A stretch of 64,000 nucleotides of DNA from Natrinema pellirubrum DSM 15624 (GTDB lineage Archaea > Halobacteriota > Halobacteria > Halobacteriales > Natrialbaceae). The stretch covers positions 186,001 to 250,000 of the forward strand of contig NC_019963.1 in the NCBI RefSeq assembly GCF_000230735.2, read 5' to 3'. Shown here in pieces: positions 5,301 through 57,500 of this stretch (the stretch's first letter is position 1; each line of letters begins with the position of its first letter). A model generated the notes under the pieces. That model ran no database searches. It saw only the letters and a program-made list of their open reading frames with translations, and was not told the DNA's origin. Both the position numbers and the translations under genes were made by a program.

Positions 5301-5406
5301 ACTCAGTGCCAGCATTCATGGATTTATCGTCTACTGGCTCGGACTCATTGCTTTGATCGCCGCTCGAGGCCTCCCCACCGTGTCCGAAGAACCGATCAAA
5401 TACCAT
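2395..5406 (-). CDS. Type IV coupling protein (VirD4/TraD-like ATPase) with extra C-terminal domains
   Basis: A 1003-residue protein. Walker A is GTTGYGKT (123-130) and Walker B is CDEFDD (371-376), followed by a sensor region SVTLASQYPSQF; this is a VirD4/TraG-type DNA-pumping motor. Residues about 585-710 look like a different domain, with PDAIA (D656) followed by FNIEAET (E671, E673), similar to a PD-(D/E)XK nuclease core though without a clear lysine. The last about 100 residues (AMYIREADGAQIPKAALFQAY and on) resemble the winged helix found at the C terminus of P4/D5-type primase-helicases. The start at 5406 has a strong AGGAGG signal. The gene overlaps the preceding gene by 11 bases. The usual N-terminal domain is encoded separately, in that gene. 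Confidence 0.85.
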   Translation of the reverse strand: MVFDRFFGHGGEASSGDQSNESEPVDDKSMNAGTESSTDQQSMAGEEYHVVDQDTTRVGGKPILTETVDEGTVAGPFVREMFEAGMYDAPTPLWVGYTEDPQTGFREAPLRFDSLFRHNWIAGTTGYGKTTQLLNMMVQWAYSGYGFTYFDPKGRDSRELLRMLPKHRLEDVVWIEPGSTTHENTVGMNFLEVPDCETTEELENEIENRVENLKAVFDTSDYWGINMEAITESMARAMMKSEQPFSVIDMYFILLNADRREDFALDVEDPYIREFCLEIANMEEETVRPLLKRIKSWVENSVIRRIIAHRESTINFRDIIDNDRIVIVRTPVENTDIKKMVTLGVMRNLWSAIQRRSYELDTEPEPYFVLCDEFDDIASDNLDIESMLARARSMRLSVTLASQYPSQFDEDTLKAMQNNCDNLLTFSVNDSDDAELLMKRFRDYTAEDLITTDQFKVWTRIPLSGGRYSEPVLIRTFPPYPPLREPDAVDRIIKQSLERYGTDPLTDAEILQDLIYSDSNEAANPTQILEETMAEAVRAVQIRERVRAENGWVDVTTVDEELAARLEDTEPEIDVAPEELPDVREESRLLEVTLQNDDIVARLTDDGETVVEPETGTVRSAGGSTHDAVLLETETALIERGFSVEILEQDGSEQPDAIATHPDHDVVFNIEAETTTPERPVKVLQNLKRAHEADRIPIFVVRPGDSKTEWATRVENIISPPLQERADGTEQFYNCDEVMTFGGGATAHGGVTAVRPKTFETNRTVWIRENGEIVLSDGETAFARVPDEGPLSKDSVPAYYSHDREAGQYTVYEAGETHVYDSREDFEDEWTPIKRPFRPAVDLPNSDYSRESYLILILPDDERPVLFQQGETYGLSDSPSDEELWPRISSGNHSRVTESSPSVKSGSAVSVPVEVDPDGDGIEAFAAMYIREADGAQIPKAALFQAYSRWTDQHDIDGTNASWFGRKLSNVVDYGDTRVRDGDDLVTVYTGIDLTSDGSEFLE

Positions 5407-6583
5407 CGTACCCCTCCTGATCGTGAGTAGGGCCATCAACGGGAACTGCTGCCTCGTCGGGGACACTGGATGTCTGTCCACCAACCGGTGACTCCTCAGC
5501 ATCGTATCGAGCCCCATCCGATGGAAGCCGGTCACCACGCTGCGTGTATCGCCAGTCGATCTTCGGCGTCTCAATTTCCGCATTGGGAATATGTGCGACG
5601 CCGGCGAGTTCGTCGACGGTCATGATCATACGGCGATCGATCCACTCGCGGTCGCGCATTCGAGAGAGGAATTGTCGGAGTCGTTTAGCTCGTTTCCGCT
5701 CTTTGCGATGCCAGACTGGAGTATCATCGAGTCCCTGCTCCGTAACCGCGTTGTAGTACTTCCTGAACATCCCCGCAACGCCGCGGGCTCGAGCCTCGGC
5801 TTCAGCCTTCTCTGATGACGCAGCGAGTACGCGGATATTCACGTGGAACGCCTGTTGCCCGCGTTGCTGTTCGATCGTCTTTGCGGCCTGCTTGTCCTTG
5901 GCGCTCGCTGGTCGTGTTCGGGGGCTGAGCCACCCCACGGATGTCCCTTGGCGAAGTGCGTGAGCGAGTTCATCGACGCTGTTGTGCTTGAAGCGGTCGC
6001 CATCAGTCCACGACTGCTTTGCAGGCCGGAAAATAACCTGTGTGACGACTGTATTCTCGTCGAGTGACAGCATTTCGCTCGTTATCTCGCCGTAGGGATC
6101 CGTCTCGAAGCCTTCGCTGTTGTGATGGCGAATCGGATAGTACGGAATTTTCTCCATCTCGAGCCACGCACCGGCAACGTACTGGTCAGAATCGATGACC
6201 GGGAACGTATGGCCCTTTTCGACAGGGAAAATCTCACTGTTCGCGTAGTTGTTCCCGACACGCCGTCGGAACTTGTCTGCGGCTGCCTCGGTAGCAGCGT
6301 GCATATAGAACGAAATTTTGCCCTCATCGAACCAGACCTCGAACGAATGGTGATCACTCGTATTCTTCCCGCGGAAGTTCGTCGTCACGTCGTGAACTGA
6401 TTGCAGGACGCCGGCCCCATCCACGACACCATTGTTCTCCTTGTAGGGGCGGATCCGAAGGAGCAGTCCTGGCGTATCTGCTTGCTGCTGGACGAACGAT
6501 CCCTTCTCTCCAAACTCGAGTTGCGTCGCCTCGTACTGGGGCGACGAACCGACCAGTTTCGTGAAACGATTGAGCGTCGTCAT
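5396..6583 (-). CDS. Conjugation protein, likely the detached N-terminal domain of the coupling ATPase
   Basis: A 395-residue soluble protein without a P-loop. The stretch FHVNIRVLAASSEKAEAEAR and the later MTVDELAGVAHIPNAEIETP, followed by a KIDW element, match the region that precedes the ATPase core in single-chain VirD4/HerA-type conjugation proteins (an ELAxLxHxPN...TPxIxW pattern, from memory of that family). The next gene supplies the missing ATPase core, so the two products probably act as one complex at the inner face of the membrane. The start is at 6583, four bases after the stop of the VirB4 gene; longer frames run into VirB4. The C-terminal tail is low-complexity and acidic. The domain assignment is inferred. 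Confidence 0.65.
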   Translation of the reverse strand: MTTLNRFTKLVGSSPQYEATQLEFGEKGSFVQQQADTPGLLLRIRPYKENNGVVDGAGVLQSVHDVTTNFRGKNTSDHHSFEVWFDEGKISFYMHAATEAAADKFRRRVGNNYANSEIFPVEKGHTFPVIDSDQYVAGAWLEMEKIPYYPIRHHNSEGFETDPYGEITSEMLSLDENTVVTQVIFRPAKQSWTDGDRFKHNSVDELAHALRQGTSVGWLSPRTRPASAKDKQAAKTIEQQRGQQAFHVNIRVLAASSEKAEAEARARGVAGMFRKYYNAVTEQGLDDTPVWHRKERKRAKRLRQFLSRMRDREWIDRRMIMTVDELAGVAHIPNAEIETPKIDWRYTQRGDRLPSDGARYDAEESPVGGQTSSVPDEAAVPVDGPTHDQEGYDGI

Positions 6584-6587
6584 GGTC

Positions 6588-9500
6588 TTAATTGTCACAT
6601 TCGGGGTCGGTTGTGCGCTGGTCGGGAGCTGACGCTCCGCCATCGGTCTGGATCGGTGCCTCTTCGGTGTCCGTCTCTGTCTCAAGAGCCTGTTCGACGA
6701 CTGCATCGAGGATTTCCGTTTTGCTGAAATCTTCTTCGAGGAGTTTGCTCGCCGTCTCAGCAGTGATATCGAGGCGGGTCGCAAGCGCGTTTTGTTGTGC
6801 TTCGGTTTCGACGAATTCCTCGAACGCGAGCAGTTCCGCTGAATCGTCGTTCATCGCCTGCTGGATGAAGGCCTGATCCGCTGGCTCGTAATCGATAACC
6901 CGCTTCTCGAACTCATCTGCGACCACGTGCAAGGGATAGGTGCCGTGTTCCTCAACGCGAACGAGTGCCTGACTGTAGCCGAGGTCCGCTTTCCCGGCGT
7001 CGGCACCTCTGACGTACTGGCGCTGTTCTTTCGTCAACCCGATTTTGTCGGCTGTCCGATCGTCAAGTTCAGGGAGTTTGTGGAAGACTTTGATCGGACA
7101 CATCCCAATGATCTTCTCGGCCTGCTCGGTCTCATAGAACTCCTGGGCCGTCTGAGAGAGCAAGACCATCCGGAGGCCAGCGTGGCGTTGGTGGCGGAAC
7201 GCCGTCTCGAGGAAGTCGAGATTGGCCTGATCCTCGAAGAGGTAGTGTGCCTCGTCGATCGCGAGTTCGACGTTCCGTTGGGTGTTCTTCGCCTGCTGGT
7301 AGATCGTCGATAGCAGTAGTTGCATTAGGAACGTCTGGCGGTCAATCCCCGAGGCGCTCCCCTCGATCTGACCAAGATCGATGTAGACGACCTTGTTGTC
7401 GCCCTCGAGGATATCGATCTCCGAGCGGTGGGAGAGGTTTTCGTAGGAGCCACCTTCGCGGAACGGCTGGAACGCAATCGCGAGTTCGTCCGCGTACTGT
7501 GCGGCACGTTCGCGAGCGGATTCGGATGCTGCAATGTTGTGTTCGTCCGGGTTCTCAGCGATATCACAGAGGATCCGGTGGATGTCCTGCATCGTCGGCG
7601 AGTTCTCTGATGTGTGCGTCGAGACGTCGTCCTCAACGATCCCTTCCTGTCGGTAGGCTTCGTCGATCACATACGAGAGGACACCAGTTTCGGCCCCGAG
7701 TTCGATATCACGAGCGTCGAGGAAGTTCTCGAGAACGGCGTAGACCTCGTCTTTCTTCGCCGAAAGGGGAGAGACCCCATCGCTGGACTCGAACACGTTC
7801 TGGGGCGTCTGACGGATCTCGAGGGGATTCAATTTCGTATCGCCCCCGACGGTGATTGTCTTCGCGTTCAGGGCATCTGCGATACCACGGAAGCCGCCGA
7901 CTGGATCGACGAGGACAAGCATCGTGTCGGTGCGCCGCTTCATCATCCGCAGGTGGCGCATAATCCCACCGAACGTCTTTCCAGCGCCGGGCATCCCGAC
8001 GACGAGTTCGCTGTGGCCCGTCTCGAGATTCCACGGATTGATGCGGATTGGAGAGCCATTGTGGCCGTGATAGCCGTACTCGATTCCGTCGTCCATCATC
8101 TGGTAGTTCGACGAGAACGGAAACATCGCGCCAATGGCCTGATTGGTCAGCGTCGACATTCGATCGCGACCGAGTTCGTTCCGACCGAGCGGTGAGACCG
8201 TTGCGAGTCCTCTCTCCTGCCATCGACTCGCGACTTTCAGCGTACAGTTGGCTGGTGCGTCTTTGATGATCGAGCGTAATCGAGTCGTCTGATTCTCGAG
8301 TTCCTGCTGACTCTCGGCAGCGAGGCGAATGAACACACCACCCCGATAGAATGACGCTTTGTTCGCTCGGACGAGCGACCGCATGTACTTCGCCTGGTCG
8401 ATATCGTCCTGCAGATCTTCGGCTTTGAGACTGTTCGAATCATGCTGGTTGATCTTCAAATCCGAAATCCAATCTGCCATCATGTCTTGGGCCGACTGAC
8501 TATCGAACGGATCGAGATGGATGCTGAGATCTGTCTGCAGATCTGTCTCGAGTAAGAGTCGCTCGAGAAGCCCATCGGATGGTTCCTCAGGGAACTGTTC
8601 GATCCAGAAGGTGCGAACGAACGTCTCGTCGTTGATCACGGCGTAGGTCGTCTCCCAATCGATCGACGACGGAGCAACCACTGACTGGTGCATCGTCGAC
8701 GTGTCCGGCAGACAATCGGCGTCGGAAACCGACGGTTCGTCAGCAGTGTCTTCTTCATCGAGATCCTCGAGGGAGTACTCCCAGTCCGCAGTTTCGTCAC
8801 TGCTGTCGTCCATCGCATCGATGACATCCTCTGGATCTGGCGTTGCTGGCACACCATCGCTGATGCCGTGAGAGACGACTGGGAACGTTCCGAGTGCGTT
8901 CGTGATATCGGCGTAGTCTTGCGATTGGCACGTCCAGTACTCCTTCGTGACTCGAGCGAGGTCATACGCGTCGACGGGGCTGATCGAACACCGATAGAGC
9001 GACGATCCACCTCGGCGGAGTTGTGCGAGTCGCGATTCGAGTTTCTCTTCTTTGAGTTGGTCGCGCTTGGACTCACTCAATTCCTCAGACTGAAAGCGAC
9101 CGAAGAGTCGCCCGAGAACTGGTACATCTACGAGATAGGACAGTACACTATCACCGGTTTCATCGAACTGTTCGATGTCGCTGTCGGTCACCGAAGTGAT
9201 GAGATAGTACTCTCGGATTGTCGTCTTTTCAGAGTCGATATCCCCATTTTCAGTCGTGTTGGAGGAGACGTACTCCTCGAGGAGGCGCTTCAGGACTGGC
9301 CGCGAGCGAACGTCAGTATCGCCAAGTCGATTCTGGTGTTCGCGAACGACGTCGTCTTCGTCGATTTCGCGGCTAGTGATGTAGATCTTCACGGGGAAGT
9401 CGACAGTCGAATTGACGAACTCTGAAAATGACTGCACGGCATTCGCCCAAGCCTCGTCGTCCTCGAGGGCCATATTCGCCGGTTCGACTTTCATCGCTCC

Positions 9501-9896
9501 GACGAGTGCGCCATCGGTTCGTTCGATGGCGTGTGGATACACCCGATTGAGACGGGTCAAATAGCGAACTTCGCTGTTGTCCTCGCCACCATGTGTGTAC
9601 TCCTTGTTCTTGATCGCCCAGCCGAATCGAGCGATGAGCCATTCGGTGAGCCAGAGGTAGTCGGGTTTGACTTTGTGGAGGAGGAAGAGAAGGATAATGA
9701 GCATGATCCCGAACCCGAGAATAGGAATCGTCAGTGCAGAGGGGACGAACGTTGCTGCGATGACGGTGACGAACGCCACCGTGAGAAACAACATGAGTTC
9801 GCCGATCGTGTAGCCTTGGAAGAACGCTGTCGTGCCACCCAGTGATTGATGAATTTTCCGTGCATTGTACTCGCTGTCTGCTGTATTCGAACTCAT
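6588..9896 (-). CDS. VirB4-like conjugation ATPase with VirB3-like membrane N terminus
   Basis: A 1102-residue protein. Residues about 30-80 form two membrane segments (FLTVAFVTVIAATFVPSAL, ILGFGIMLIILLFLLHKV), resembling the VirB3/PrgI domain often fused to VirB4. The ATPase has Walker A GMPGAGKT near residue 637 and Walker B LAIDEAHYLF near residue 880. A charged insert with many D/E residues (about 365-400) is a halophilic addition. VirB4 powers pilus assembly and substrate transfer at the cytoplasmic membrane. The ATG ending at 9896 is preferred over a GTG at 9908, because a GAGGTGGTGA ribosome-binding motif lies just upstream. It follows the VirB6-like gene closely and precedes the coupling-protein genes. 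Confidence 0.9.
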   Translation of the reverse strand: MSSNTADSEYNARKIHQSLGGTTAFFQGYTIGELMLFLTVAFVTVIAATFVPSALTIPILGFGIMLIILLFLLHKVKPDYLWLTEWLIARFGWAIKNKEYTHGGEDNSEVRYLTRLNRVYPHAIERTDGALVGAMKVEPANMALEDDEAWANAVQSFSEFVNSTVDFPVKIYITSREIDEDDVVREHQNRLGDTDVRSRPVLKRLLEEYVSSNTTENGDIDSEKTTIREYYLITSVTDSDIEQFDETGDSVLSYLVDVPVLGRLFGRFQSEELSESKRDQLKEEKLESRLAQLRRGGSSLYRCSISPVDAYDLARVTKEYWTCQSQDYADITNALGTFPVVSHGISDGVPATPDPEDVIDAMDDSSDETADWEYSLEDLDEEDTADEPSVSDADCLPDTSTMHQSVVAPSSIDWETTYAVINDETFVRTFWIEQFPEEPSDGLLERLLLETDLQTDLSIHLDPFDSQSAQDMMADWISDLKINQHDSNSLKAEDLQDDIDQAKYMRSLVRANKASFYRGGVFIRLAAESQQELENQTTRLRSIIKDAPANCTLKVASRWQERGLATVSPLGRNELGRDRMSTLTNQAIGAMFPFSSNYQMMDDGIEYGYHGHNGSPIRINPWNLETGHSELVVGMPGAGKTFGGIMRHLRMMKRRTDTMLVLVDPVGGFRGIADALNAKTITVGGDTKLNPLEIRQTPQNVFESSDGVSPLSAKKDEVYAVLENFLDARDIELGAETGVLSYVIDEAYRQEGIVEDDVSTHTSENSPTMQDIHRILCDIAENPDEHNIAASESARERAAQYADELAIAFQPFREGGSYENLSHRSEIDILEGDNKVVYIDLGQIEGSASGIDRQTFLMQLLLSTIYQQAKNTQRNVELAIDEAHYLFEDQANLDFLETAFRHQRHAGLRMVLLSQTAQEFYETEQAEKIIGMCPIKVFHKLPELDDRTADKIGLTKEQRQYVRGADAGKADLGYSQALVRVEEHGTYPLHVVADEFEKRVIDYEPADQAFIQQAMNDDSAELLAFEEFVETEAQQNALATRLDITAETASKLLEEDFSKTEILDAVVEQALETETDTEEAPIQTDGGASAPDQRTTDPECDN

Positions 9897-9901
9897 CTGA
9901 A

Positions 9902-11113
9902 TCACCACCTCGAGACCTTTTCTTTGGTGTTTCTGAGTCCTTGCTTGGCTTTGATCGACGTTTTTCGTGTGACCTGTTTGGCGTCGTCTTTGGCTTTGTC
10001 GCGCATCCGGCCCGAATCCGATTTCCGGAGAGTGTTATACTGGCGTGCATGGGCTTTCGTCGAGTTCGCTGATTGACCCAGCTTGTACGCTTTCGAACTG
10101 CCGCTCTCGAGTTTCGTCTGGCCGGTTTTGGTCACCGGACCGTACTTTCCGTTTGCGTAGCCCCGGTGGACGTTTCGGGCACCACGCACAGCACTCCCAG
10201 AGGCAGCTTTTGCTTTGCTAGCTCCAGCAGCAGCCGATGCCGGATTCGTGGCGGTAACACTCTTCTGGGCGATCGTCCGGACAGCAGGGCTGCTCCAGTA
10301 GACGGTCATGATCATCGCAATGATCGCGGCAGGAATCAGCGTCAACCCAATGAATAGCGCGAAAAGCTCATTTTGGCCGAGTGTCTCAATCCCACCGACT
10401 TCCCATCCAATTCGGAAGAGAAGCGCCGCTGGAACCCCAGCAAGTATGAGTCCGGGGTAAATCCCTGCTACTCGACGGGCCATATTCGCTGCTGGCGTGA
10501 ATGGCCAGACTTCAAGAGCCCAGATAACGCCTAGGAGCGGCATAGTGACCGTCAGCACGAAAATTCCGATCCACCGGAGAGCAACGACGAATCCAGCAAC
10601 AACTAGGAAGAAATTCGAGATGACAACCATTGCGAGAATCACAAACGTACCTCCAAGAGTCGCTTGAATAAGCCCACCAAGGCCTGCAGACATATCATCA
10701 ACCGGAGCAATAGTCGTACCAATTGCGTCGACAAATTGCAACGGGATCGACACCAACGGGAACCAAACGAAGGTTCCCATAAATACGATCCCTAGCCGCC
10801 TCAGAAGGCGTTTTCGACGGTAATCACTCATCGAACCTGCTCGAAGGCCAATGAACGAGAAACAGATAATTACCATCATAATCGCTAAGGGCATGATATA
10901 CGCCAGATACACATCCTGATACAAACTTGCCCAAGGCTCCCCACTTGGAGTCCCAACAACAATATACTGCGAGTCAGATTCCGGTGCCGGAACGCCGATA
11001 ATAGGCTCTAAGAGTGCTCCGTAGATATCGTTTACCAGCCCAAGAATTGCGTCAGTGAACCTCTCAATAACGTTTTCAATCCCATCTTCGACTTGGTCCT
11101 GCAGCCATGGCAT
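9902..11113 (-). CDS. VirB6/TrbL-like polytopic membrane protein
   Basis: A 403-residue protein with about seven hydrophobic segments between residues 70 and 275 and a long basic, Ala/Gly/Lys-rich cytoplasmic tail (about 285-403). This topology and its place between the lipoprotein and VirB4 genes fit the VirB6/TrbL channel component of type IV secretion. Archaeal members are very divergent, so the call rests on topology and context rather than motifs. The start ATG at 11113 lies directly beside the stop of the lipoprotein gene (11114), so translation is probably coupled. It also has a well-conserved WPFTPAANMARRVAG segment of unknown role. Confidence 0.7.
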   Translation of the reverse strand: MPWLQDQVEDGIENVIERFTDAILGLVNDIYGALLEPIIGVPAPESDSQYIVVGTPSGEPWASLYQDVYLAYIMPLAIMMVIICFSFIGLRAGSMSDYRRKRLLRRLGIVFMGTFVWFPLVSIPLQFVDAIGTTIAPVDDMSAGLGGLIQATLGGTFVILAMVVISNFFLVVAGFVVALRWIGIFVLTVTMPLLGVIWALEVWPFTPAANMARRVAGIYPGLILAGVPAALLFRIGWEVGGIETLGQNELFALFIGLTLIPAAIIAMIMTVYWSSPAVRTIAQKSVTATNPASAAAGASKAKAASGSAVRGARNVHRGYANGKYGPVTKTGQTKLESGSSKAYKLGQSANSTKAHARQYNTLRKSDSGRMRDKAKDDAKQVTRKTSIKAKQGLRNTKEKVSRW

Positions 11114-11989
11114 TTAGTTCTCACCACTAGTAGAATCCGAGTCAGTTGGACTGCCCTTGACAATCGTAAGGTCACAAGATTGGTCATCACCATACTCGAT
11201 TTGCTGTGTGTACGACGGATCTGGTCCCACCTGAACGACAGCTGTCACTGTCATCGGTTCAGTACCTAACCTGCTACAGTCCACCGAACCTCCTGCACCA
11301 CTCGTCTGGTAGATTTGGCCAAACGAATAGACAGTCGTCTCTCCGGGTGGCAAACGTATCTCATGATGATACGAGACTGTGTCGTCTCGACCTAACTTGG
11401 CGGCTGGTGCGCCTTTCCACTGAAGTTCGGTGAGTAGGGATGGAATCGTTCCCTTGTTCTCTATGACAACTGCCGCATACTCATCCCAGACTGGTGAGTT
11501 CTTGTCCCAGTCCATGTCTGGATTCTCTGCCGCCCAGAACACGTCGGTGATTCTGCACTCTGCATCGATCGAAATCGTCGTCGAGTCGAGTGGATCCTCG
11601 CTCTCGAGACTCTTGAGAGCGATGAGTTCGTACTCGCCAGTCGGAAGGTCGTCTTCATATCTGCCGAGAATCTCGAATGAGGCTTCAGTATCGTCTTCCT
11701 CGAGACGGGATTGGTCGAATAACTCGCCATTCGGATCGACGAGGTTGATGAATTCGGTTGCACTCTCCCCAGTGACTTCGACCTCGAGATTCTTCCCGTT
11801 CATCTCGACGTTCGCGAAGACATCACTGTCCTCGGTGTCGAGTCCAGAGCTATCCTCTGTACTATTGTTCGACGGACTCGTGGAGGAGTTTGACGTACAG
11901 CCAGCAAGTGCGGCGGTACTCAATCCGATACTGACAAGCACTGATCGGCGAGCGATACAACTCTCGTAAGTTGGATTGTTATCTGTCAT
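11114..11989 (-). CDS. Tat-exported lipoprotein of the conjugation operon
   Basis: A 291-residue protein. The N terminus has a twin-arginine element (ARRSVLVS), a hydrophobic stretch, and a lipobox LAGC followed by a Ser/Thr/Asn-rich linker, the standard form of a haloarchaeal lipoprotein anchored outside the membrane. The rest is a beta-rich acidic domain with two cysteines near the C terminus. No enzyme motif is seen. In this operon position it may play the part of VirB7 or a surface stabiliser, which is an inference from context. The ATG ending at 11989 is used rather than a TTG six codons upstream. It overlaps the preceding gene by 11 bases. Confidence 0.7.
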   Translation of the reverse strand: MTDNNPTYESCIARRSVLVSIGLSTAALAGCTSNSSTSPSNNSTEDSSGLDTEDSDVFANVEMNGKNLEVEVTGESATEFINLVDPNGELFDQSRLEEDDTEASFEILGRYEDDLPTGEYELIALKSLESEDPLDSTTISIDAECRITDVFWAAENPDMDWDKNSPVWDEYAAVVIENKGTIPSLLTELQWKGAPAAKLGRDDTVSYHHEIRLPPGETTVYSFGQIYQTSGAGGSVDCSRLGTEPMTVTAVVQVGPDPSYTQQIEYGDDQSCDLTIVKGSPTDSDSTSGEN

Positions 11990-13742
11990 CGGTATCTGTG
12001 AGTCCAAGGAACGTGCCGCCAGTCAGGTAGTCAAACCCGTAGACGGCTAGGACAACTGGGAGGAACCAGAGCAGCGTTACGAGCGCTAACTGGACGAGTT
12101 GAGCGAACTTCGGATACTTCGGTGGGATCTTCGCCCGATCCTCTGCAGTAGCGTACATCGTCTCTGCACGCCACCAATCCTCAGCAACGTATGTTCCGTC
12201 GACTACGAGCGATGGCCGTTCTTCGAGGTGGAGTCGAGCCATGCCACTGGCGTTGAGGGGAGCCGACTGGTTGCCGACTTCCACACGCCCAGTCGTCACT
12301 GGCTCTCCAGTTGCATTTTCCGTCACTGTTGCTTCGACGACTGCTCCCGAGGAATCGGCCTCGAGTACGGTCAGATTGAGATTGGTTTCGCGAACGATGC
12401 CGTCGTCCGCGAGCGAGACTGTTTGTGACTGGCCGCGAACAATGCCGTGAACGGTGACCGTGTCAAACGAATCGGCTGTAATCGATTCTGACTGCAGCGC
12501 CACGGACGATGAGTTTACGTACTGATCGACAGGGGTAACGTCGATTGCCTCAGCAAGGGACGGCCCAGCATGTTCACTCCCCCAGGCGTCTTCGATCTCG
12601 AGCGGTGGTTCGACCGTCTCCGTCGAGCCGCTCGAGACGTCCGGCTCCGCCTGCATGGGGACCGCGTAGAGCTGTGCCGGACGCACTGTGGAATTTGCTC
12701 GCGTCGTCTCGGTCTCTGTCCGTGAGACCATCGTGTGCCAGCCGGCGTCGCCGGCGGAATAGAAGCGCCAGTTCCCGCGAACTCGTATGTCATCGTTGGT
12801 CTCAATTGCCGACCAGACAGTACCTGGGTGAACGACAGCGCCCGTCTGCTCATCATCGGTTTCGAATGTCGTCTGGGTTCCAGTGGCAGTGTCGAATCGG
12901 TTGACAGTGGTGTTGCGCGAGTCGGTTACTGTGAGTTGTTCGAACGGATGGGTGAGTTCTGTCTCCCACGAGCCATCACAGGAGTCTGTACTCTGATTAT
13001 ACTCGTCACACGTCCGCCGTTCGTGGCGGAGTTGAGCAGAGATATCCACTTCAACTGTCAGCGTTGGGTCGCCTGACAGGCCGCTATACTCGAGGGTTGA
13101 CTGGTGGCTGGTGTTGGAATCCAGTTGCTGACCAGCGGCCCGAAGCTCAACCTCTTCGAGTTCCGCTTCCTCGAGGGACCACTCCTCACGCACTGGGCCG
13201 CTCTCACGATCGTCTGGAACCGCGACTCGATAATCAGCTGTCGCAAGTACCTCGCCTTTCGGTGCGATATATGTAGTCGACTCGGTACCCGACTGGAGGA
13301 CCGTCGATGGCTGAACAGCGAAGATGCTGGTGTGTGCGTCTTTGATGTACTGGCCATCCTCGAGGTCAGCCGACTCCGGATGAACTGACGTTGCTGCATC
13401 ACCAGCAGCATACTCACCGAAATCGCCACGGTTCCACTGCTCGACATCCTCGATCGGGTCGTCGAACAGGTAGTCCGTCGACCTCGAAAGGCGCTGTGTG
13501 AATTCTGCAGACGACGACGCGTTTACATCGAAATCGTCACTCGAGAGGTTTTCCTGCTCTGTATCTTCTGACCACAGCAAATAGAACCGCGACTCGTTGA
13601 CGCCGTTATCAGGCCCACTTGTAGGGACTGCTGTACTCGAGTGTGAATCCGCTGCGAGAATTGTGGTACTCGCAAGGCCAGCCACGAGACTACTCGTGCC
13701 GAGGAGGGCGACCACAACGAGCATCGAACGGGACGGGGCCAT
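11979..13742 (-). CDS. Large secreted membrane-anchored protein of the conjugation operon
   Basis: A 587-residue protein with an N-terminal signal peptide (MLVVVALLGTSSLVAGLAST) and one C-terminal membrane segment (LVQLALVTLLWFLPVVLAVY). The 500-residue part between them is acidic, Thr/Ser-rich and would face the outside. It carries many N-x-S/T sequons, suitable for archaeal glycosylation, and a pair of cysteines (RRTCDEYNQSTDSCDG). No catalytic motif is recognised. The two-ended anchoring and operon place suggest a surface scaffold or mating-contact protein; the function is not established. The start is at the ATG ending at 13742, 11 bases downstream of the pilin stop. Confidence 0.65.
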   Translation of the reverse strand: MAPSRSMLVVVALLGTSSLVAGLASTTILAADSHSSTAVPTSGPDNGVNESRFYLLWSEDTEQENLSSDDFDVNASSSAEFTQRLSRSTDYLFDDPIEDVEQWNRGDFGEYAAGDAATSVHPESADLEDGQYIKDAHTSIFAVQPSTVLQSGTESTTYIAPKGEVLATADYRVAVPDDRESGPVREEWSLEEAELEEVELRAAGQQLDSNTSHQSTLEYSGLSGDPTLTVEVDISAQLRHERRTCDEYNQSTDSCDGSWETELTHPFEQLTVTDSRNTTVNRFDTATGTQTTFETDDEQTGAVVHPGTVWSAIETNDDIRVRGNWRFYSAGDAGWHTMVSRTETETTRANSTVRPAQLYAVPMQAEPDVSSGSTETVEPPLEIEDAWGSEHAGPSLAEAIDVTPVDQYVNSSSVALQSESITADSFDTVTVHGIVRGQSQTVSLADDGIVRETNLNLTVLEADSSGAVVEATVTENATGEPVTTGRVEVGNQSAPLNASGMARLHLEERPSLVVDGTYVAEDWWRAETMYATAEDRAKIPPKYPKFAQLVQLALVTLLWFLPVVLAVYGFDYLTGGTFLGLTDTDDR

Positions 13743-13753
13743 ATGTGAAGGGG

Positions 13754-14221
13754 TCAGAATGGCTGCACGCAACTCGAGAACTCGAATCCCATCTGACTTC
13801 CAACATTGTCGATGAGTTCGGGCGAGATGAGCGCAAGGACGATGATGCCAAATCCAACACCCGACATCACCAGTCGCTCTTTGGCGGTGTTCTTTTTCTC
13901 AGGATTGCCGCCCGCACGCATGTACGAGAGCCCCGCTCGACAGACGTAGAAACCCGTTGCAGGGAGTCCAAGCCCGGCAATCGCCCCAAAGACGATCGTG
14001 ATCCCTGTTTCGACGCCAGTTCCACAGTAGACATCACCGACATCCGACTGGGCAGCCGCTGAGCCAGTCATAATGACGAGGAATGAGATCCACATGGCGA
14101 CTGGGGGAGCCTTCGACGTTGCTCGGGCAGACAGGGTTCGGAGTTGACCCGAAAACATGGATTGCTCATCAGGGCGTTTGGCAGACTGTTCAACGGAATC
14201 GGGAGTGGGACCATTATTCAT
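13754..14221 (-). CDS. VirB2/TrbC-like conjugative pilin
   Basis: A 155-residue precursor. A long N-terminal leader ends in a hydrophobic segment and an AAA cleavage-like site (WISFLVIMTGSAAA, then QSDVGD). The mature part would be about 100 residues with two hydrophobic helices (GITIVFGAIAGLGLPATGFY and LVMSGVGFGIIVLALI) joined by a short basic loop (RAGGNPEKKNTAKERL). This is the build of VirB2/TrbC pilins. Cysteines near both ends of the mature part (VYCGTG and SSCVQPF) could form a disulphide. It stands upstream of the membrane and ATPase genes, the usual order in type IV secretion operons. The start is the ATG ending at 14221, overlapping the small upstream gene by eight bases. Confidence 0.75.
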   Translation of the reverse strand: MNNGPTPDSVEQSAKRPDEQSMFSGQLRTLSARATSKAPPVAMWISFLVIMTGSAAAQSDVGDVYCGTGVETGITIVFGAIAGLGLPATGFYVCRAGLSYMRAGGNPEKKNTAKERLVMSGVGFGIIVLALISPELIDNVGSQMGFEFSSCVQPF

Positions 14222-14495
14222 ACGGGGAAATATTTGCGTGGGGTGCGTCAGGCTGTGGCTGGTAGGCCTCATCGTTGGATAGCGATGCAATCAGGTCCTC
14301 GAGGTCGTACGTTGTATCACGACTCACATCGGCAACCAGTACGTCCCAGTCTCGAGGGGTGCTCTTGCACCCGATCAATCGTGTAGTCAGTGTGTCTCGA
14401 ACCGACCTGGAGGCAGTAGTACTGCTACCCAACCTGAGGAACACTGCGTTGACGGATATGATTGGAATTCGTGTGTGGGAAGTCTTGCACAGCAT
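14214..14495 (-). CDS. Small protein at the head of the conjugation operon
   Basis: A 93-residue reading frame whose stop overlaps the pilin start by eight bases, the kind of overlap seen elsewhere in this operon. The N-terminal half is basic and the C-terminal half acidic (DWDVLVADVSRDTTYDLEDL, then a Pro-rich end), with a composition suited to a halophile. No family is recognised. The start could be the ATG ending at 14495 or a GTG further upstream (14522). It may be a regulator or a leader peptide gene, but it could also be a chance frame. Confidence 0.4.
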   Translation of the reverse strand: MLCKTSHTRIPIISVNAVFLRLGSSTTASRSVRDTLTTRLIGCKSTPRDWDVLVADVSRDTTYDLEDLIASLSNDEAYQPQPDAPHANISPYE

Positions 14496-30166: not shown

Positions 30167-30919
30167 ATGGGATGCAAGGTCGACCCCATCATCGAACGCC
30201 ACTCGCTGACCGTGCCTGATCCGGGCTACGAGTCGGTCGACGAGTATCTGGTGGCGCGATGGACTGGTGCTGACGGGCGGTCTTCTGTCGGGTACAAAAC
30301 ACTCACCGAATGGTTCAATAAACGGCTATTGAAGCGGTTATACGAAGATCACAGTCGAGACACGGTAAGTGCACACCTCGATCGCGAGTACGAGCTCATC
30401 ACCGGCGACGAGGACCTCCAACGGGATGAATTGGCGGCGGATATCGCGACGGATGGTTTCGATATCGACGAACTCGCCACGATGATGGTATCGTGGAGTA
30501 CGATGCGGCACCACCTCAAGGACTGTCTCGGAGCCGAGAAAGACACGTCCACCGCAGAGACGGATTGGGAGTCGAACACCGTCCAGATGGCCCGAGAACG
30601 AGCGACAGAGAAAGCCCAGTCAGTCCTCTCGTCCCTCCATTCGAAGAACCGCCTTCGGGACGCAGACCAGGCCGAGGTCGATGTGCAGGTCAAACTCCGC
30701 TGTCCGGAGTGTTCGGTCCGAGTGCCATTCGAGGATGCAGTTGAGCGCGGCTACGTGTGTCGTACGCACGCCGAAACTCCGTCTGAAGAACCGGAGAGGG
30801 AGCGCGTTCAGAATCAGTATTCGTCGCTGGCACTCTCGTACGTCGCCATAGAGGCGCTTCAGGCGGTGGTCTCTGGAGAACCGTTCCTCCTCGAAGCTGC
30901 CACGATCGCTGCTTTCTAA
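30167..30919 (+). CDS. rdfA: Rod-determining factor A-like protein (RdfA)
   Basis: A 250-residue protein. It has a helical N-terminal half with EYLVARWTGADGRSSVGYKT and LTEWFNKRLLKRLYEDH, and a later zinc-ribbon-like element CPECSVRVPFEDAVERGYVC. Proteins of this type are always paired with an archaea-specific SMC-related protein in haloarchaea. In Haloferax one pair member was tied to rod cell shape. The next gene here starts two bases after the stop and is that SMC-related partner, which strongly supports the call. A TATA-like TTTATTA lies about 40 bases upstream of the ATG. Confidence 0.75.
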   Translation: MGCKVDPIIERHSLTVPDPGYESVDEYLVARWTGADGRSSVGYKTLTEWFNKRLLKRLYEDHSRDTVSAHLDREYELITGDEDLQRDELAADIATDGFDIDELATMMVSWSTMRHHLKDCLGAEKDTSTAETDWESNTVQMARERATEKAQSVLSSLHSKNRLRDADQAEVDVQVKLRCPECSVRVPFEDAVERGYVCRTHAETPSEEPERERVQNQYSSLALSYVAIEALQAVVSGEPFLLEAATIAAF

Positions 30920-30921
30920 TC

Positions 30922-32706
30922 ATGACGTGGCATCTTTCCCTGACGAACATCGCCGGGATCCGACACGGTGAGGCCCATATCGAGTCAGGCATTAATGCTG
31001 TCCGCGCCAGTAACTGGCAGGGAAAGTCCAGTTTCCTCGCCGGTATCCAGACTGCATTGGGCACAGCAACACCCCTGACTGAGGGACAGGCCTCCGGGGA
31101 GGTCAACTTGCAGACCGACGCGGACGAAATCACGATCCAGTTGGAACGGACCAACGGGACCGTTTCTCGCTCCGGACAGCCCTATCTGGCAGAGGAATAC
31201 GATCGTGTCTGTGCAGAGCTGTTCGCGTTCCTGGACGAGGACAACGAGATCCGGCAGGCCGTCCGAGCTGGCGAGAACCTGGAAAACCTTCTCACACGCC
31301 CCCTGGATTTCGAGAATATCGACGAACAGATTGCCGATCTCCGTCACGAACGTGAGCAGGTCGAGCGGGAACTCGATCGAGCGGACAAGGCTGCTGATCG
31401 ACTCCCGGATCTACAACAGCAGGTCACGAGCCTCGAAGACGATCTCGAAGAATTGCGTGCCGAACGTGATGAACTCGAGGAAGACCCTGCCGGCGACAGC
31501 GATGCCCGTGAGGAACTGAGCGAGTTGCGGGCCGAACGCGACCGCGTGACGACCAAGATCAACCGTCTCGAAACGACTGCCGAACGCGTTCGTGACACAC
31601 TCTCGGAGAAACAGGACGAACTAGAATCGCTCACGATTCCTTCAGAGACCAACATCGAAGGCGATCTTGAACGTCTCCAAACCGAACTGCGTGATCTCGA
31701 ACGTGACAAGGAACTACTGCAGTCGGTCTACGAGGCGAACAAACGGGTCCTCGACGAAGGTCGTGTCGAACTTCTCACGAAGGTATCGCACGATATGCTA
31801 TCGGACTCGGTCGCCTGTTGGCTCTGTGGAAGTGATACGGAGCGCGAGGAGATCGAGGGACAGCTCGCGGCACTCGATGAGCGAATTAGCGACCTCCGCT
31901 CGAAGGCAGCCGAGAGCCGCGAGCGTGTCGAAGAGCTCGAATCAAAGCGTGACGAGATTTCACAGGCACGACGCCGGGAAACCGAGTTGACCGATCGAAT
32001 TGGGGAACTCAGGTCCCGTCTCGCTGAAACCGAGGAGAGTCTCGACACGGCTCGTGACCGCCGCGACGACCTCGAGTCCCGTCTCGAGGATCTTGAGGAG
32101 GTCGTCGACACGACCGAGGACCGACTCACGGACCTCGAAAGCGAGATCAAGTACACTGAAGCGGAGTTAGCCGATGTCCGTGACGAACTCGAGGAGACCG
32201 AGACGTTTGCAGCACAACGGGATGGGCTTGAAGACGAGTACGAGTCGTTGACAGACGACATTACGGATCTTCGCACCCGGAAAGACGAGATCAAGCAGCG
32301 AACGCGTGATGCCTTTTCTACGGCGTTGGCGGATCTGCTGGAGGAGTTCGATACGGGCTTCGAGACGGCTCGCCTCACGAGTACGTTCGATCTCGTCGTT
32401 GCCCGAGAGGGACGAGAGGCACAGCTAGACGCGTTGAGTGAGGGTGAACGGGAACTTCTCGGAATCGTTGCGGCACTTGCTGGCCACGAGGCATTCGACG
32501 TCGGTGAGCGCGTCCCGGTGATGCTCCTCGACGAACTCGGTGGCCTTGCCAGTGAGAATCTCCAAATCCTGGTCGAGTACTTGGCGGCGCGAACTGAATA
32601 TCTCGTTCTTACGGCGTTCCCAGAACATGAGGGACTCGAAGCGAATGTGCTGTCGCCAGCTGATTGGCAAGTCGTTTCACATGAGCCGGACGTCGAGGCG
32701 GCGTAG
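30922..32706 (+). CDS. Archaea-specific SMC-related protein
   Basis: A 594-residue SMC/Rad50-like ATPase. The N-terminal half has a P-loop ASNWQGKSSFL near residue 31. A long coiled coil (about residues 135-510) is interrupted by a Rad50-type zinc hook CWLCGSDTE near residue 300. The C-terminal half has a signature LSEGERELLG and Walker B VMLLDELGGL. It is shorter than true SMC or Rad50. It likely forms dimers joined at the hook and acts on DNA or the cell envelope with the RdfA product. Co-transcription with rdfA is near certain, given the two-base gap. Confidence 0.85.
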   Translation: MTWHLSLTNIAGIRHGEAHIESGINAVRASNWQGKSSFLAGIQTALGTATPLTEGQASGEVNLQTDADEITIQLERTNGTVSRSGQPYLAEEYDRVCAELFAFLDEDNEIRQAVRAGENLENLLTRPLDFENIDEQIADLRHEREQVERELDRADKAADRLPDLQQQVTSLEDDLEELRAERDELEEDPAGDSDAREELSELRAERDRVTTKINRLETTAERVRDTLSEKQDELESLTIPSETNIEGDLERLQTELRDLERDKELLQSVYEANKRVLDEGRVELLTKVSHDMLSDSVACWLCGSDTEREEIEGQLAALDERISDLRSKAAESRERVEELESKRDEISQARRRETELTDRIGELRSRLAETEESLDTARDRRDDLESRLEDLEEVVDTTEDRLTDLESEIKYTEAELADVRDELEETETFAAQRDGLEDEYESLTDDITDLRTRKDEIKQRTRDAFSTALADLLEEFDTGFETARLTSTFDLVVAREGREAQLDALSEGERELLGIVAALAGHEAFDVGERVPVMLLDELGGLASENLQILVEYLAARTEYLVLTAFPEHEGLEANVLSPADWQVVSHEPDVEAA

Positions 32707-33626
32707 TCAGGCCAACCCGCTCCACAGTGTCTCGGAGTCTCTCAGACCGACCAACCAGACAAGAATGACCTTATTCCGTGAGTGGAAGCAGGATCCCAAA
32801 TATAAAGGGTGAAAGAAAAAATGCCCCTCGCCTCGGGCGCGTATACACTATTTGCTGACCCTGACGGTCGCTACTCCTCGCCACGCAAGTTTGTCGGCGG
32901 GATAACTGCTGGCGCACTCAGCGGCTGGCTCGCCCTCGAGGTGAGCGCACGAATTTGGTATCTACCCCCGCCCGAACAGTTGCAGGTTCACGCCAGTGCA
33001 GCTGCGCTCGGAATCTTTCTCACCGGTGTCGTAACATGGGGGCTGTCGCTGGAAGAACCCACGGCATTCTCGACTTCCCTCCTCGTCCTCGTAACTGGCG
33101 CCGAGCGGCTGACGTACGTGACCGGAATCGTGGTCTCGAGTCTCCTCGTCGCCGGTGTGTTCGTGGTCTGGCGACGCCGCGTCTATCACGAACGGGCACG
33201 CTACCTGTTCCAATCCGCCCAGAGCGACGATCAGATTCTCGTCCCGGTTCGCGGCGATGCTACTGATTCAGTAGTCCTGTTCGCTGCACGGTTGGCCGCT
33301 GCTCACGATGCCGGAAAGATCGTTCTCATGAAAACGGTCAGTACGGAGACGATCGAAAAAACGGAAACAGAACTGGAAGCGACCGGACGAGAATCTGTTT
33401 CTGGAGACAGTGACGAACCGTCAGAGGACTCCGTCACCCAGGCGGCTGAAGAGCACCTCGCCGAACAGCAACTTCGCGACCTTGAACGACTCCAGGATCG
33501 GATCGCCTCCGTCGTCGACGTGCCCTGTGAATTCGTCGTCGCCGTCGAAGATGGTTCTGCCGGCGAAACCGTTCTCAGGACTGCAGAAACCGAGAATTGT
33601 GATTTGATCGTCTGCCCCTATGAAAC

Positions 33627-34552
33627 TGCTCTGTAGGATCGCTAGACGGCGGGGCCACGGCTACGCTATATTGGTAGAATGCGAAGAGGCGGGTGTATGT
33701 GCTCCGAAATCCGCCTCTTCACTCGTGAATCGGTGGCGAGAGCAAAAGACGTTGTCGCGAACCCTGCCGAACCGGCCGATCCAGTGGGTGGCGGCAGCTA
33801 CGCCGAATGGGCGATGCTGACGGTGAATGCCCTCCGGGTTGAGTTGGGCAAATCCTACCGCGGGACGTGTGATTTGCTCGCGGAGATGCCCGGCATTCTG
33901 GCCGAGATCGGCCTCTCGCGCGTGCCACACTTCACGACGGTCCACGCGTGGTTCGTCGAAGTGCCGACCGAGCGCTGGCGGGCGTTTCTGGGCGCCTCCG
34001 CCCAGAAACGCAGCGGCCACGCCGCGCTCGACGCAACCGGCTTCGACCGCGACCATCCCAGCCGTCACTACGCCCAGCGCGCGCACTACCACCTGCGCGC
34101 GCTGAAAGTCACCGCGCTCGTCGACGTCGAGACGCTCTACATCACCGATATTCACTCGGCGGCGGGCAAACCGTCGGACTTCCGGGTCGGCCCACAGGTC
34201 GCCCGGCGCAACGCGGGCGACCTGCGGAGCCTCGCGGCCGATTCGGGCTACGACTCGATGGCGTTCCGGGGCGGACTCCGTGAAAACGGCGTTCGACCAC
34301 TGATCAAACACCGGATCCTCGCGCCGTTCGACCACGCCCACAACGGTCGGATGGACACCGACGCGTACAACCAGCGCTGGATGGCCGAAACCGCCTTTTC
34401 CAGCCTCAAACGCACGCTCGGTGCCACTGTCCACGCGCGCAGCTGGTGGCTGGAATTCCGCGAGATGACGCTGAAAGCGACCGTCTACAACCTCCGCCGG
34501 AGCGTCAGATATTCGTGAAAATCACGCAGATGCCGGGCGATCCTACAGAGCA
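33627..34552 (+). mobile_element. ISH1-like insertion sequence (IS5 family), complete
   Basis: A 926-bp element with perfect 16-bp terminal inverted repeats: TGCTCTGTAGGATCGC at 33627-33642 and its complement at 34537-34552. An 8-bp target duplication, TATGAAAC, flanks it (33619-33626 and 34553-34560). One intact transposase gene fills it. The size, 8-bp duplication and transposase match ISH1. The perfect ends and duplication mean a recent insertion. Confidence 0.95.
33679..34518 (+). CDS. ISH1-like IS5-family transposase
   Basis: A 279-residue DDE transposase. The catalytic residues lie in AALDATGFDRDH, LAADSGYDSMAF and MAETAFSSLKRTLG (the last is the Y/AExxxxxxKR box). The frame is complete from an ATG just inside the left terminal repeat (or the next ATG, six codons on) to a stop near the right one. 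It should be able to move the element. Codon use is very GC-rich compared with the surrounding genes, as often seen in recently arrived ISH1 copies. Confidence 0.9.
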   Translation: MRRGGCMCSEIRLFTRESVARAKDVVANPAEPADPVGGGSYAEWAMLTVNALRVELGKSYRGTCDLLAEMPGILAEIGLSRVPHFTTVHAWFVEVPTERWRAFLGASAQKRSGHAALDATGFDRDHPSRHYAQRAHYHLRALKVTALVDVETLYITDIHSAAGKPSDFRVGPQVARRNAGDLRSLAADSGYDSMAFRGGLRENGVRPLIKHRILAPFDHAHNGRMDTDAYNQRWMAETAFSSLKRTLGATVHARSWWLEFREMTLKATVYNLRRSVRYS

Positions 34553-35304: not shown

Positions 35305-35889
35305 ATGAGTAGTCTTACAGCACCCCTAAAAATAGAGAACGTGGTGGCATCGACAGGCGTTGGCCAGGAACTCAACCTCGAGGCACTTGCTGATGATCTC
35401 CCGCATTCAGAATACAATCCGGGTAATTTTCCAGGGATGGTCCATCGGATTCAGGACCCGAACGCGGTCACACTCCTCTTTCGGTCGGGGAAGATCGTCT
35501 GTACCGGTGCCCAAAGCACTGCAGACGTGACGGATGCGTTGAATATCCTCTTTCAGGACCTGCGTGATCTCGGTATCGACGTCGTCGACCAACCGGAGAT
35601 AACTATCCAGAATATCGTCTCCAGTGGGGACCTGGGTGAACAGATCGATCTCAATGCCATTGCGATCGGGCTCGGATTAGAACATACCGAGTATGAACCT
35701 GAGCAATTCCCCGGCCTCGTGTATCGATTGACGTCACCACCGGTCGTTGTGTTGCTCTTCGGAAGCGGGAAACTAGTGATTACAGGCGCCAAGACGCGGG
35801 ATAATGCACAGAGCGCGCTTGAAACGGTACATTCTCGACTCAGGGAGCTCGATTTGCTCAACAATCCCTGGGACGGTCTCTATCAATAG
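35305..35889 (+). CDS. tbp: TATA-box-binding protein paralogue
   Basis: A 194-residue general transcription factor that binds the TATA box and recruits TFB and RNA polymerase. The two imperfect direct repeats of the saddle are plain: IENVVASTGVGQELNLEALA / FPGMVHRIQDPNAVTLLF / SGKIVCTGAQS in the first, and IQNIVSSGDLGEQIDLNAIA / FPGLVYRL / GSGKLVITGAKT in the second. The first repeat has substitutions against the usual haloarchaeal TBP (PGMVHRI for PGLVYR, and PHSEYNPGNF). Haloarchaea often have several TBPs that set promoter choice; this is likely a secondary one. The neighbours are metabolic genes. Confidence 0.95.
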   Translation: MSSLTAPLKIENVVASTGVGQELNLEALADDLPHSEYNPGNFPGMVHRIQDPNAVTLLFRSGKIVCTGAQSTADVTDALNILFQDLRDLGIDVVDQPEITIQNIVSSGDLGEQIDLNAIAIGLGLEHTEYEPEQFPGLVYRLTSPPVVVLLFGSGKLVITGAKTRDNAQSALETVHSRLRELDLLNNPWDGLYQ

Positions 35890-54508: not shown

Positions 54509-57500
54509 TCAGGCGACGAGAGCCAACATAGAGCGAAGTTCGGATTCGATATCAGTCAGTTCACTCCGTTGCCACTCAAACTGTTCTTCGACGCCGACAT
54601 CGGTAAACCGGAGTGAAGCACGAACCTGTCGTGCGGGATCGTGCTGGAAGAGCGCGAGAGCGTAGGCAAGCATCTGCGGCCGATAGTGGTCAGCGAGGGC
54701 ACCAGTCGTCGTCGAAGACAGGTCGTTCGTCTTGTAGTCGATGATGTGATACGCATCTGGAGTAACCAGAAGACGGTCAATATCACCCACTATGCGGGAG
54801 TCATCAAGACGAGCGACAACTGAGTACTCGTCGTAGGAAGCTTCAAGCGAGAGGTCCGCCTCAGTTTCATCGACGAACCGGATCGCATCCTGGGCATGGC
54901 ACACCGCCGCCTGAAGATCGTTATCCGTCGGTTCCTCACCTTCCATACGACTCAACTGACGAATGAACGAGGGCCACTCATCCCGTGGAAGACGGAGCTC
55001 ATTGAGTCGATGGACAACAGTTCCGAAGGTGGTCGGACTCAATCCGATTGTCCCACCCCCCGACGTGTAGCTGTGTCCGTTCTCGGAAGCGTCTGCAACG
55101 GCACTGACGAGGGTTGTTGCGGCAACGCGAACTGCGTCCTGTCGTTCCGGCGGAGAGGGGACAGTAATCGCAGGGTCTACCGCTTCCGTGGGAGCCTCAG
55201 ACTGCCATTCAACCGGCCGAGGTGGCGTCTGAATAGTGTATGAAGCATCACCGATTCGAGCGTCCGTAGCTCCCTCGTAGACCGCCTCAACGACTAGCTC
55301 TTGGTCGTCAAACAGAATTGGCTGAAGCCAATCCCGCCACCGGCTGGCGTCAGCGAAGTCATCTGGCTCACCGAGTTCGATGTGTCCAGACTCATCAGTA
55401 TCGATGTCGTGTGTTCCACACAGCAGCAGGTGGTCCCGAGTTCGGGTACAGGCCACGTAGAGCAGGCGTTTGGATTCCGCACGCTCTTGCGGGAGTGAGC
55501 GACGATCGGCATATTCGTGGACTGCCGTCTTCTCGATTGCGAACGCATCGTTGGGGTGGGGAGCACCTACTGCAGGAATCGGTGGGGCATCAGTCGTCCC
55601 CTCAACGAGGCGGACATAGCCGTGATCGTCAACGGACCGCCCGAAATTGAGGTCACTTCCGAGATCGGGGACAGTGACGATTGGGAACTCGAGTCCCTTC
55701 GCGGCGTGAATCGTCATTATCCGGACGCCCTCCACATCGCCGGGGATGTCAGCCTCCCCTTCTCGGGGGTCGATCTCTGCTTGGCGGTCGATCCGGTGGA
55801 GCAACCCAGCAGCTGTGTGAACACCGTTCTCGCTCCAAGTACGGACCTGGTCGCGGAACTTCTCGACGTTCTCGACGGCCTGGTGACCGCGTTCGTCAGC
55901 ACTCACGCTCGCCAGATACCCCGTGTCGTCGATCACTCGGGACAACAGACGGTACCACGGGAGGACGCCATCTTCAGACGGCGTCGCGCAGCCACTAAGG
56001 GTACGCCATGTCGTGAGGAGGTCGAAAGCATCCGCGAGCTGTGGATCGTCCGTCTCGGCGAGTGCATCCCACACTGAATCAGCCTCGGCAACTGCCGGTG
56101 CGAGGCGGTCATCGGTGAAGCCAAACAGCGGGGACCGAAGCACCCCATAGAGAGAGACGTCGTCCTGCGGATCACCAAGCACCCGAAGTAGGTTCGTCAG
56201 CGCCTGGACCTCGGGCGTATCGTAGAATCCGACGCCACCGACGACAGTATAGGGAATGTCGTACTCCTCAAGGGCCCGCTGATACCGATCCAGATGGGTT
56301 CGCCGGCGGAGGAGGATTGCCGTGTCGTCCGGCGTAGCGTCGCGATGAACACCCGTGTCGGGGTCTTGGACTGTCGGTGGATCGTCGAACAGGTTGGTCA
56401 GTCGAGCAGCGAGCGCTTGCGCCTCGGCCTCGATGGTGTGGTCGAGCGCACCTTCAGCAACCGGATGGTCACCGCCGAAGAGTTCCGCCGCCGTGTCGGC
56501 GTCGTCGGGCACAGCGAGATACTCGACACTCCCGGTCAGTCCCTCGATGTCCTCGATACGGTCGCGTTGTGTGGTCAACTCCTGCGGTGGCGCTTCGTGG
56601 GGTTCGTGGCTGTCACCCTCCGGCTGGAACAGGTACTCGAAGAGCTCGTTCAGGAACGACAGCGGCTCATCCAGCGTCCGGAAGTTCCCGGAGAGTTCGA
56701 GCGCGGTCGGACTCTCGGCATCGCTGTCGGGGACGTCGTCGACCCCACGGGCTTCGTTGACAGTCTGGAGTTCCGCTCTCGCTTCCCCGAACGTCGTCAC
56801 GTCGGCACCACGGAATCCGTAGATACTCTGTTTCTCGTCGCCGACCAGAAAGACGTTCGACGCCGTCTGCTCGTCGACGCCCGTGAGGAGCTTGACCAGC
56901 TCCCACTGGCGCGGGTCCGTGTCCTGGAACTCGTCGACCATCACGGCCGCAAACTGCTCTCGTAGCCGCTCCGTGACGGCATCGTTCGTTCGCAAGAACT
57001 CAAGGGTGGTCTCGATCACGTCGGGGAAGTCGAGCGTATCGCGACGCTCTTTCTCGTCGGCGTAGGCGGCGAGGACGTCATCGAAGACCCGCATCAGAGC
57101 CAGCGCGTAATGGGCGCTGTTTGCTTCGAGCTCACCGGGTGTCGTCTCGACTGCATCCGCGTGCGGTTCGACGGCCGCGATGACCGCGTCGATAGCGTCC
57201 TTCAGGTCGTCGTAGACGTCACCGTACTCATTCCACTCGTCCCGGTCACCGACGACGTATCCCGAACTGCTGTACAGGCCACCGTTCTTCTTCTCACAGG
57301 CCTCGTAGAGGTCGAGGATTGCCCGCTGACAGTCGCGGGGATCGCTTTCCTCGGGGTTGGCAGGGAGTGTCGTCGCGACCTCGGTGAAGGTCCGGTAGAC
57401 CCCAAGGCCGTCCTCGTCGGCGATAGCGCCCTCACGGTCGACGCGGCCCGCGACCGTGCGTAGCTGCTCAAGGAGTCCGTCCGCAAACAGCGTCTGTCGA

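Follow-up and report, generated by a model that had tools for sequence, protein, structure and literature searches.

Haloferax volcanii mutants that lack RdfA, or the Sph3 encoded next to it, form only disks and are non-motile, and among RdfA proteins the requirement for rod shape and motility is described there for HVO_2174 only (PMC10869688). The same source places 42 of 54 RdfA genes, from 24 genomes, beside an SMC-like gene. All four Sph proteins of H. volcanii are needed for survival in a gene-conversion assay, their effects on shape differ, and delta-sph1 cells are described as having a wild-type appearance (PMC11276520). Sph3 is described as plate-promoting in PMC13286277, contrary to PMC10869688. 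In the classification of PMC9389158, archaea-specific SMC-related ATPases (ASRP, also called Sph) share a clade with coalescin and Sph, and by this classification coalescin (ClsN) of Sulfolobus is likened to the protein described here. Three of the four H. volcanii sph genes carry plasmid locus numbers (PMC11276520), the locus letter B standing for pHV3 (PMC10869688). In Halobacterium salinarum, Sph1 and Sph2 are both encoded on pNRC200, each beside rdfA, and ASRP matches were found in 129 plasmid records. The H. volcanii locus letter A is taken by us to stand for pHV4. Plasmid-borne RdfA–Sph copies are thus usual and not new.

The window (the whole stretch of 64,000 nucleotides from Natrinema pellirubrum DSM 15624 that was analysed) holds an RdfA–ASRP pair of the same two families and in the same adjacency as RdfA–Sph3 (HVO_2174/HVO_2175) of H. 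volcanii (PMC10869688). Haloferax Sph3 belongs to the Sph2-4 group (PMC11276520), whereas the window ASRP falls on the Sph1 side, and the aligned Sph2-4-type RdfA proteins lack the C-terminal tail that the window RdfA carries. The RdfA–Sph1 pair on pNRC200 of H. salinarum is likewise on the Sph1 side and plasmid-borne, with rdfA directly upstream, but its Sph1 is 36.7% identical to the window ASRP and its RdfA lacks the hydrophobic tail. Pairs on plasmids of Haloarcula pelagica (locus L037) and Halobaculum magnesiiphilum (L035) are 61-78% identical to the window pair and resemble it in having a tailed RdfA, a two-base gap between the genes and permease/HPP neighbours. Both of these plasmid loci carry genes for z73 and DUF106 proteins, and L037 also for m229 and SecY (all four are described below), whereas the window has none of them. 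The first-pass annotation of this DNA had called the pair a known haloarchaeal module of unsolved mechanism, and the RdfA/Sph3 pair of Haloferax and the Sph1 of Halobacterium with its rdfA bear this out.

Genes, motifs and replicon of the pair

The rdfA gene (30167..30919, + strand) encodes an RdfA-family protein of 250 aa that scored 130.5 bits with PF21811 (cut-off 27, profile positions 1-194 of 195). It is followed by asrp (30922..32706, + strand), which encodes an ASRP of 594 aa that scored 485.3 bits with NF045487 in a profile search (cut-off 300, full-length profile 1-593 of 593) and was designated Sph1-type by its tree position. Both scores exceed the curated cut-offs, and the earlier naming of the two genes is therefore upheld. 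The open reading frames are intact, lie in tandem and start with ATG, and two bases separate the rdfA stop from the asrp start, as had been read before from the window sequence. Among the 21 nearest loci (window included), 17 have the two-base gap and in the other 4 the genes overlap by four bases, so this spacing is a trait of the clade.

Motif conservation was followed in a clade set of 58 fetched loci (window included, out of the matches at E ≤ 1e-100) and in a 14-row alignment. The ASRP is a split ABC ATPase, with Walker A, signature and Walker B arranged around a coiled coil and hook. Walker A reads NWQGKSS (31012..31032, + strand), and its NWxGKSS form was present in all 58 clade loci. 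The zinc hook CWLC (31816..31827, + strand), at the apex between two coiled-coil arms, is intact as first annotated, and CxxC was found in 58 of 58 clade loci. In the window the hook reads CWLCG, with C299, W300, C302 and G303 invariant across the 14 rows, and the predicted structure model likewise places it as the apex between long helices; the heads were poorly modelled (pLDDT mostly < 60). The ABC signature LSEGE (32434..32448, + strand) occurred in 57 of the clade loci and as LSQGE in the other one. For Walker B, VMLLDE (32518..32535, + strand), conservation was taken from the 14-row alignment (M534, L535, L536 and D537 invariant), the regular expression having missed most clade rows. An ABC head, coiled coil and CxxC hook are also common to Rad50 of Rad50–Mre11, but the best Rad50 model reached 44.6 bits with the ASRP against a cut-off of 700, and the ASRP has RdfA and not a nuclease as its partner.

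The window corresponds to C2:186001-250000, where C2 is a contig of 275,821 bases in a genome of three contigs given as 99.91% complete. Three Orc1/Cdc6 matches over the cut-off were found on C2 (at C2:140, 103186 and 110329), and profile searches located the only SecY of the genome and its two EMC3 matches on C1, the 3.79-Mb contig. As a separate contig with its own Orc1/Cdc6 genes, and with SecY and EMC3 matches only on C1, C2 is well supported as an accessory, plasmid-like replicon, in agreement with the setting proposed in the first-pass annotation. Conjugation-like genes, ParA and transposases are present in the window.

Two further RdfA–ASRP pairs were found on C1, and the window copy is thus the third in the genome. 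One of these pairs is common to many Natrinema; a C1 ASRP matches its N. thermotolerans counterpart at 99% identity. The second (L131, G000:C1:1834359-1836877) has an Orc1/Cdc6 gene about 2 kb away, and the third-position GC of its ASRP is 0.55 versus 0.86 for the other C1 ASRP, which together suggest that this pair sits within an integrated element or plasmid.

Distribution and transfer

In the comparison of plasmid with chromosomal pairs that had been proposed at first pass, a 79-row ASRP tree placed the window ASRP on the Sph1 side, apart from both C1 copies and from Sph2. The branch that sets this copy and H. salinarum Sph1 off from Sph2 and the Sph2-4 type had an SH-aLRT of 99, a value to be read with caution because long branches meet there. 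All trees were "quick" trees of rows other than SMC, Rad50 or coalescin.

Of the 391 genomes in the class, 81 have close ASRP relatives (E ≤ 1e-100), as do 8 of the 22 in the genus, the source genome included. Three other families, together with another genus of the same family, account for the seven nearest copies (74-79% identity), and congeneric copies are 50-70% identical to the window ASRP. A tree in which five congeneric copies were forced into one clade was rejected (p-AU 0.0011), the congeneric group having been picked after the 79-row tree had been seen. Thirty clade loci could be placed on a replicon type, 21 on secondary replicons and 9 on contigs of at least 2 Mb; the other 28 were drafts. 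These counts, the rejected clade and the patchy spread speak against a strictly chromosomal, vertically inherited pair, the pattern with which the earlier reading was to fall. The window copy is patchily distributed and has moved horizontally. A draft congener (G034:C24:39980-40549) was also seen to carry, besides its own 70% copy, a fragment that matches the window ASRP over residues 1-190 at 99% identity. No RdfA match was obtained at E 0.01 in 50,697 phage records, and IMG/VR yielded no ASRP relatives and one weak RdfA match (L168; 25% identity over residues 2-69).

RdfA adjoins ASRP in 57 of the 58 clade loci, on the same strand in 51 and divergently in 6, and lies 6 kb apart in the remaining one; for RdfA presence at L072-L131, ORF calling was supplemented by tblastn. 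Given the six divergent arrangements, the link between the two genes is independent of any one operon layout. Differences to four relatives amounted to 0.06-0.10 at codon position 2 as against 0.47-0.56 at position 3, and both genes are therefore under purifying selection.

The RdfA tail and the SecY/EMC3 genes of tailed relatives

The predicted model of RdfA shows a helical N-terminal domain of high confidence (~90 pLDDT over residues 1-60), one long helix and a part resembling a zinc ribbon, with C179, C182, C198 and H201 as putative ligands (30701..30769, + strand). The first three of these, all cysteines, are invariant in 19 aligned RdfA proteins, and the CxxC...C.[CH] pattern occurs in 57 of 58 clade RdfA, L128 being the exception. 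The model gave no Foldseek match to solved structures at E ≤ 0.001 and no usable match with VIA-align 2 (best Z 4.3 among 109 chains), a comparison that is blind to any fold that Foldseek missed; the RdfA profile found nothing convincing among PDB sequences (best E 3.7). A weak match to TFE (20.1 bits, cut-off 149.5) was set aside as a putative shared zinc ribbon.

After the zinc ribbon, RdfA ends in a hydrophobic tail almost without positive charge (residues 217-250; 30815..30916, + strand), in which two predicted hydrophobic stretches flank a GEP turn. The tail is present in 26 of the 58 clade loci, namely all 21 of the tight clade (L072-L092) together with L107, L109, L111, L113 and L129, and is absent from the other 32. 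It changes once on the clade tree, which points to a single origin; a larger tree with outgroups did not join the tailed groups. Its hydrophobicity (median of mean score) was 1.05 versus -0.46 for the protein ends of 340 background ORFs, of which 7.6% reach the weakest tail score. The usual transmembrane level on this scale is 1.6. Since only 2 of the 26 tails score at least that much, this segment may be amphipathic in nature or have a part in assembly. It could bring the complex to the membrane or to a hydrophobic partner.

Around the tailed pairs a further set of genes was observed, with RdfA-ASRP-z73-EMC3-m229-SecY as the common order in the tight clade. Here z73 is a 73-aa protein with zinc-binding-like cysteines, EMC3 an EMC3/TMCO1-type (DUF106) protein and m229 a 229-aa protein with a hydrophobic N-terminus, predicted to be membrane-anchored. 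Across the 21 tight-clade loci EMC3 occurs in 16, z73 in 13, m229 in 11 and SecY in 10, to which L107, L109 and L111 add SecY and m229. At least one of the four genes is nearby in 20 of 26 tailed loci versus 0 of 32 tail-less loci, and the genes are rearranged yet still near the pair in L086, L107, L109 and L111. All four are absent from the fetched stretches of the window, L084, L087, L092, L113 and L129, absences that are upper bounds because several loci stop at contig ends. On C2, tblastn of the tight-clade clusters found no z73, m229, EMC3 or SecY at E 1e-10.

Among the m229 matches listed with the N-terminal part, 13 of 14 are at most 10 kb away from an ASRP of the clade (that of genome G336 is on a different contig); genomes G189 and G334 have second matches beyond this listing. 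An m229-like sequence occurs in 376 of 391 genomes of the class, in most of them as the C-terminal half only. SecY and EMC3 of the set are ~68% and 61% identical, respectively, to the C1 copies of the window genome (tblastn). With the near-universal m229-like sequence, these identities suggest that SecY, EMC3 and m229 are paralogs of proteins of the host. The spare SecY genes in L078-L082, L086, L088-L091, L107, L109, L111, L037 and L038 (the last on plasmid pSVX82-2 of a Haloferax lucentense strain) are 75-98% identical to each other and accompany tailed RdfA–ASRP pairs on plasmids and in drafts. Literature searches found no link of RdfA or DUF106 with SecY. What is new here is the branch of RdfA proteins with a tail and, in relatives, the linkage of this branch to an alternative set of SecY/EMC3 genes. 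On the clade tree the tail changes 1 time and the gene set 4 times; their association is one evolutionary event and not independent evidence, and as it has one origin no p-value is attached to it.

The tailed branch, window included, might on these grounds be a membrane-tethered SMC-related complex, often with its own protein-insertion set. The tailed RdfA would anchor the ASRP at the membrane, whether or not DNA (perhaps of the plasmid or the nucleoid) is bound to it, and the spare SecY/EMC3 would insert the tailed RdfA or its partners in relatives, while the window pair would rely on the host machinery. Such tethering would suit a conserved hydrophobic tail gained once, a gene set confined to tailed loci (20 of 26 versus 0 of 32) and often in fixed order, and the closeness of 13 of the 14 listed N-terminal m229 matches to a clade ASRP. 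It has to be set against the window and the five other tailed loci that lack the set, against an association that counts as a single event, and against the two tails in 26 that attain 1.6, so that we hold tethering to be a tentative and rather doubtful reading.

Gene neighbourhood and function of the window pair

The pair is neighboured in the window by genes for a Na/Ca exchanger, Usp, HPP-Usp, an IS5 transposase and TBP. The HPP-transmembrane/Usp protein (32809..33636, + strand; PF00582, weak PF04982) is 64% identical to its tight-clade neighbour, and the TATA-box-binding protein paralog (35305..35889, + strand; PF00352, cluster c43) is 65% identical to its clade neighbour and stands beside the pair in L073 and L075 too. 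HPP-Usp, TBP, an amino-acid permease and a TrkA-type protein are neighbours common to the window and the clade. Among the neighbours no shape or DNA gene was found, which counts against the action on DNA and shape favoured below. In the best 25 of 203 families, the genes flanking the clade loci are mostly metabolic or transport genes that differ between subclades. The rdfA-sph2 pair of H. salinarum on pNRC200 (L169) is flanked by a universal stress protein on one side and by TrkA/kdp genes for potassium transport on the other, a setting that echoes the Usp and TrkA neighbours of the window pair.

Elsewhere in the window, central-metabolism genes occupy 24738-52839 (two aconitases, isocitrate dehydrogenase, malic enzyme-PTA and dihydroxy-acid dehydratase), together with a citrate-type transporter, the TBP paralog and a histone-deacetylase-like gene. 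The conjugation-like genes lie at 781-14290 on the - strand and encode a TraG/TrwB-like ATPase, a TrbL-like protein, a T4SS pilin and an NrS-1-polymerase-domain protein. Within the block at 54509-62290, a strong BrxA match (61457-62290; PADLOC, 421.5 bits) lies beside a UvrD-PD-(D/E)XK protein and, on the other strand, another PD-(D/E)XK protein; this may belong to a BREX-like system that extends beyond the right edge of the window.

Plasmid maintenance, by which the pair would organise or segregate its own replicon, would fit the 21 of 30 placeable clade loci on secondary replicons and the Orc1/Cdc6 gene ~2 kb from the second C1 pair. We judge it unlikely, given that 9 of the 30 lie on contigs of at least 2 Mb, that no replication or partition gene recurs among the clusters present in at least 4 loci, and that C2 has its own ParA 20 kb away. 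That the pair is carried along passively on C2, without a function there, would agree with neighbours that vary between subclades and are mostly metabolic, but this is made quite improbable by intact genes under purifying selection and by a pairing kept in 57 of 58 loci.

A defence role, Wadjet-like or otherwise anti-plasmid or anti-phage, starts from an SMC-type ATPase on mobile DNA, which the window ASRP has in common with Wadjet (JetABCD), and from weak PADLOC matches of the ASRP to LmuB (62.6 bits) and JetC (37.1 bits). These matches run mainly through the coiled coil, RdfA had no PADLOC match, and JetA, JetB and the toprim protein JetD, which together with JetC define Wadjet, were not found among the window neighbours. 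Two flanking genes on each side of the pair were scanned in the 58 loci (228 genes, 128 cluster representatives); among the defence families listed (25 of 31), none matched more than 2 of the 128 representatives, and the Cas12f matches accompany OrfB_IS605 transposases. The toprim or nuclease partner that the first-pass annotation had suggested looking for in other loci did not recur beside the pair in relatives. Its proposals of plasmid maintenance and of Wadjet-like defence are both left unsupported, since no Wadjet, nuclease or partition partner recurs there, and we regard defence as very improbable.

We rather favour the reading that the window pair is an extra, horizontally acquired RdfA–Sph copy of Sph1 type, on a plasmid-like replicon, that acts on DNA and shape. 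The ASRP would dimerise in the manner of Rad50/SMC, by way of its ATPase heads and its zinc hook, and act on DNA, with RdfA as its dedicated adaptor, made of the helical N-terminal domain and the zinc ribbon and here extended by the hydrophobic tail. As the RdfA fold matched nothing in the PDB, we infer this adaptor role. The output would be a modulation of DNA transactions or of nucleoid layout and, thereby or in parallel, of cell shape, as with the Haloferax paralogs. By homology with these, an effect of the window pair on cell shape is plausible; a copy of Sph1 type may also be without action on shape, because delta-sph1 cells of H. volcanii looked like the wild type.

The window pair itself is an ordinary member of a known system, without the SecY/EMC3 set. 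For the tailed branch, the once-gained RdfA tail and the company of spare SecY/EMC3 genes provide a concrete hypothesis of membrane contact in the setting of shape. If true, tethering would connect membrane-protein biogenesis with an SMC-type ATPase, and the organisation of DNA would gain a physical means of acting on cell shape. The Sph1-type pair moves between haloarchaeal families on secondary replicons, so that traits of shape and DNA organisation may be exchanged horizontally.
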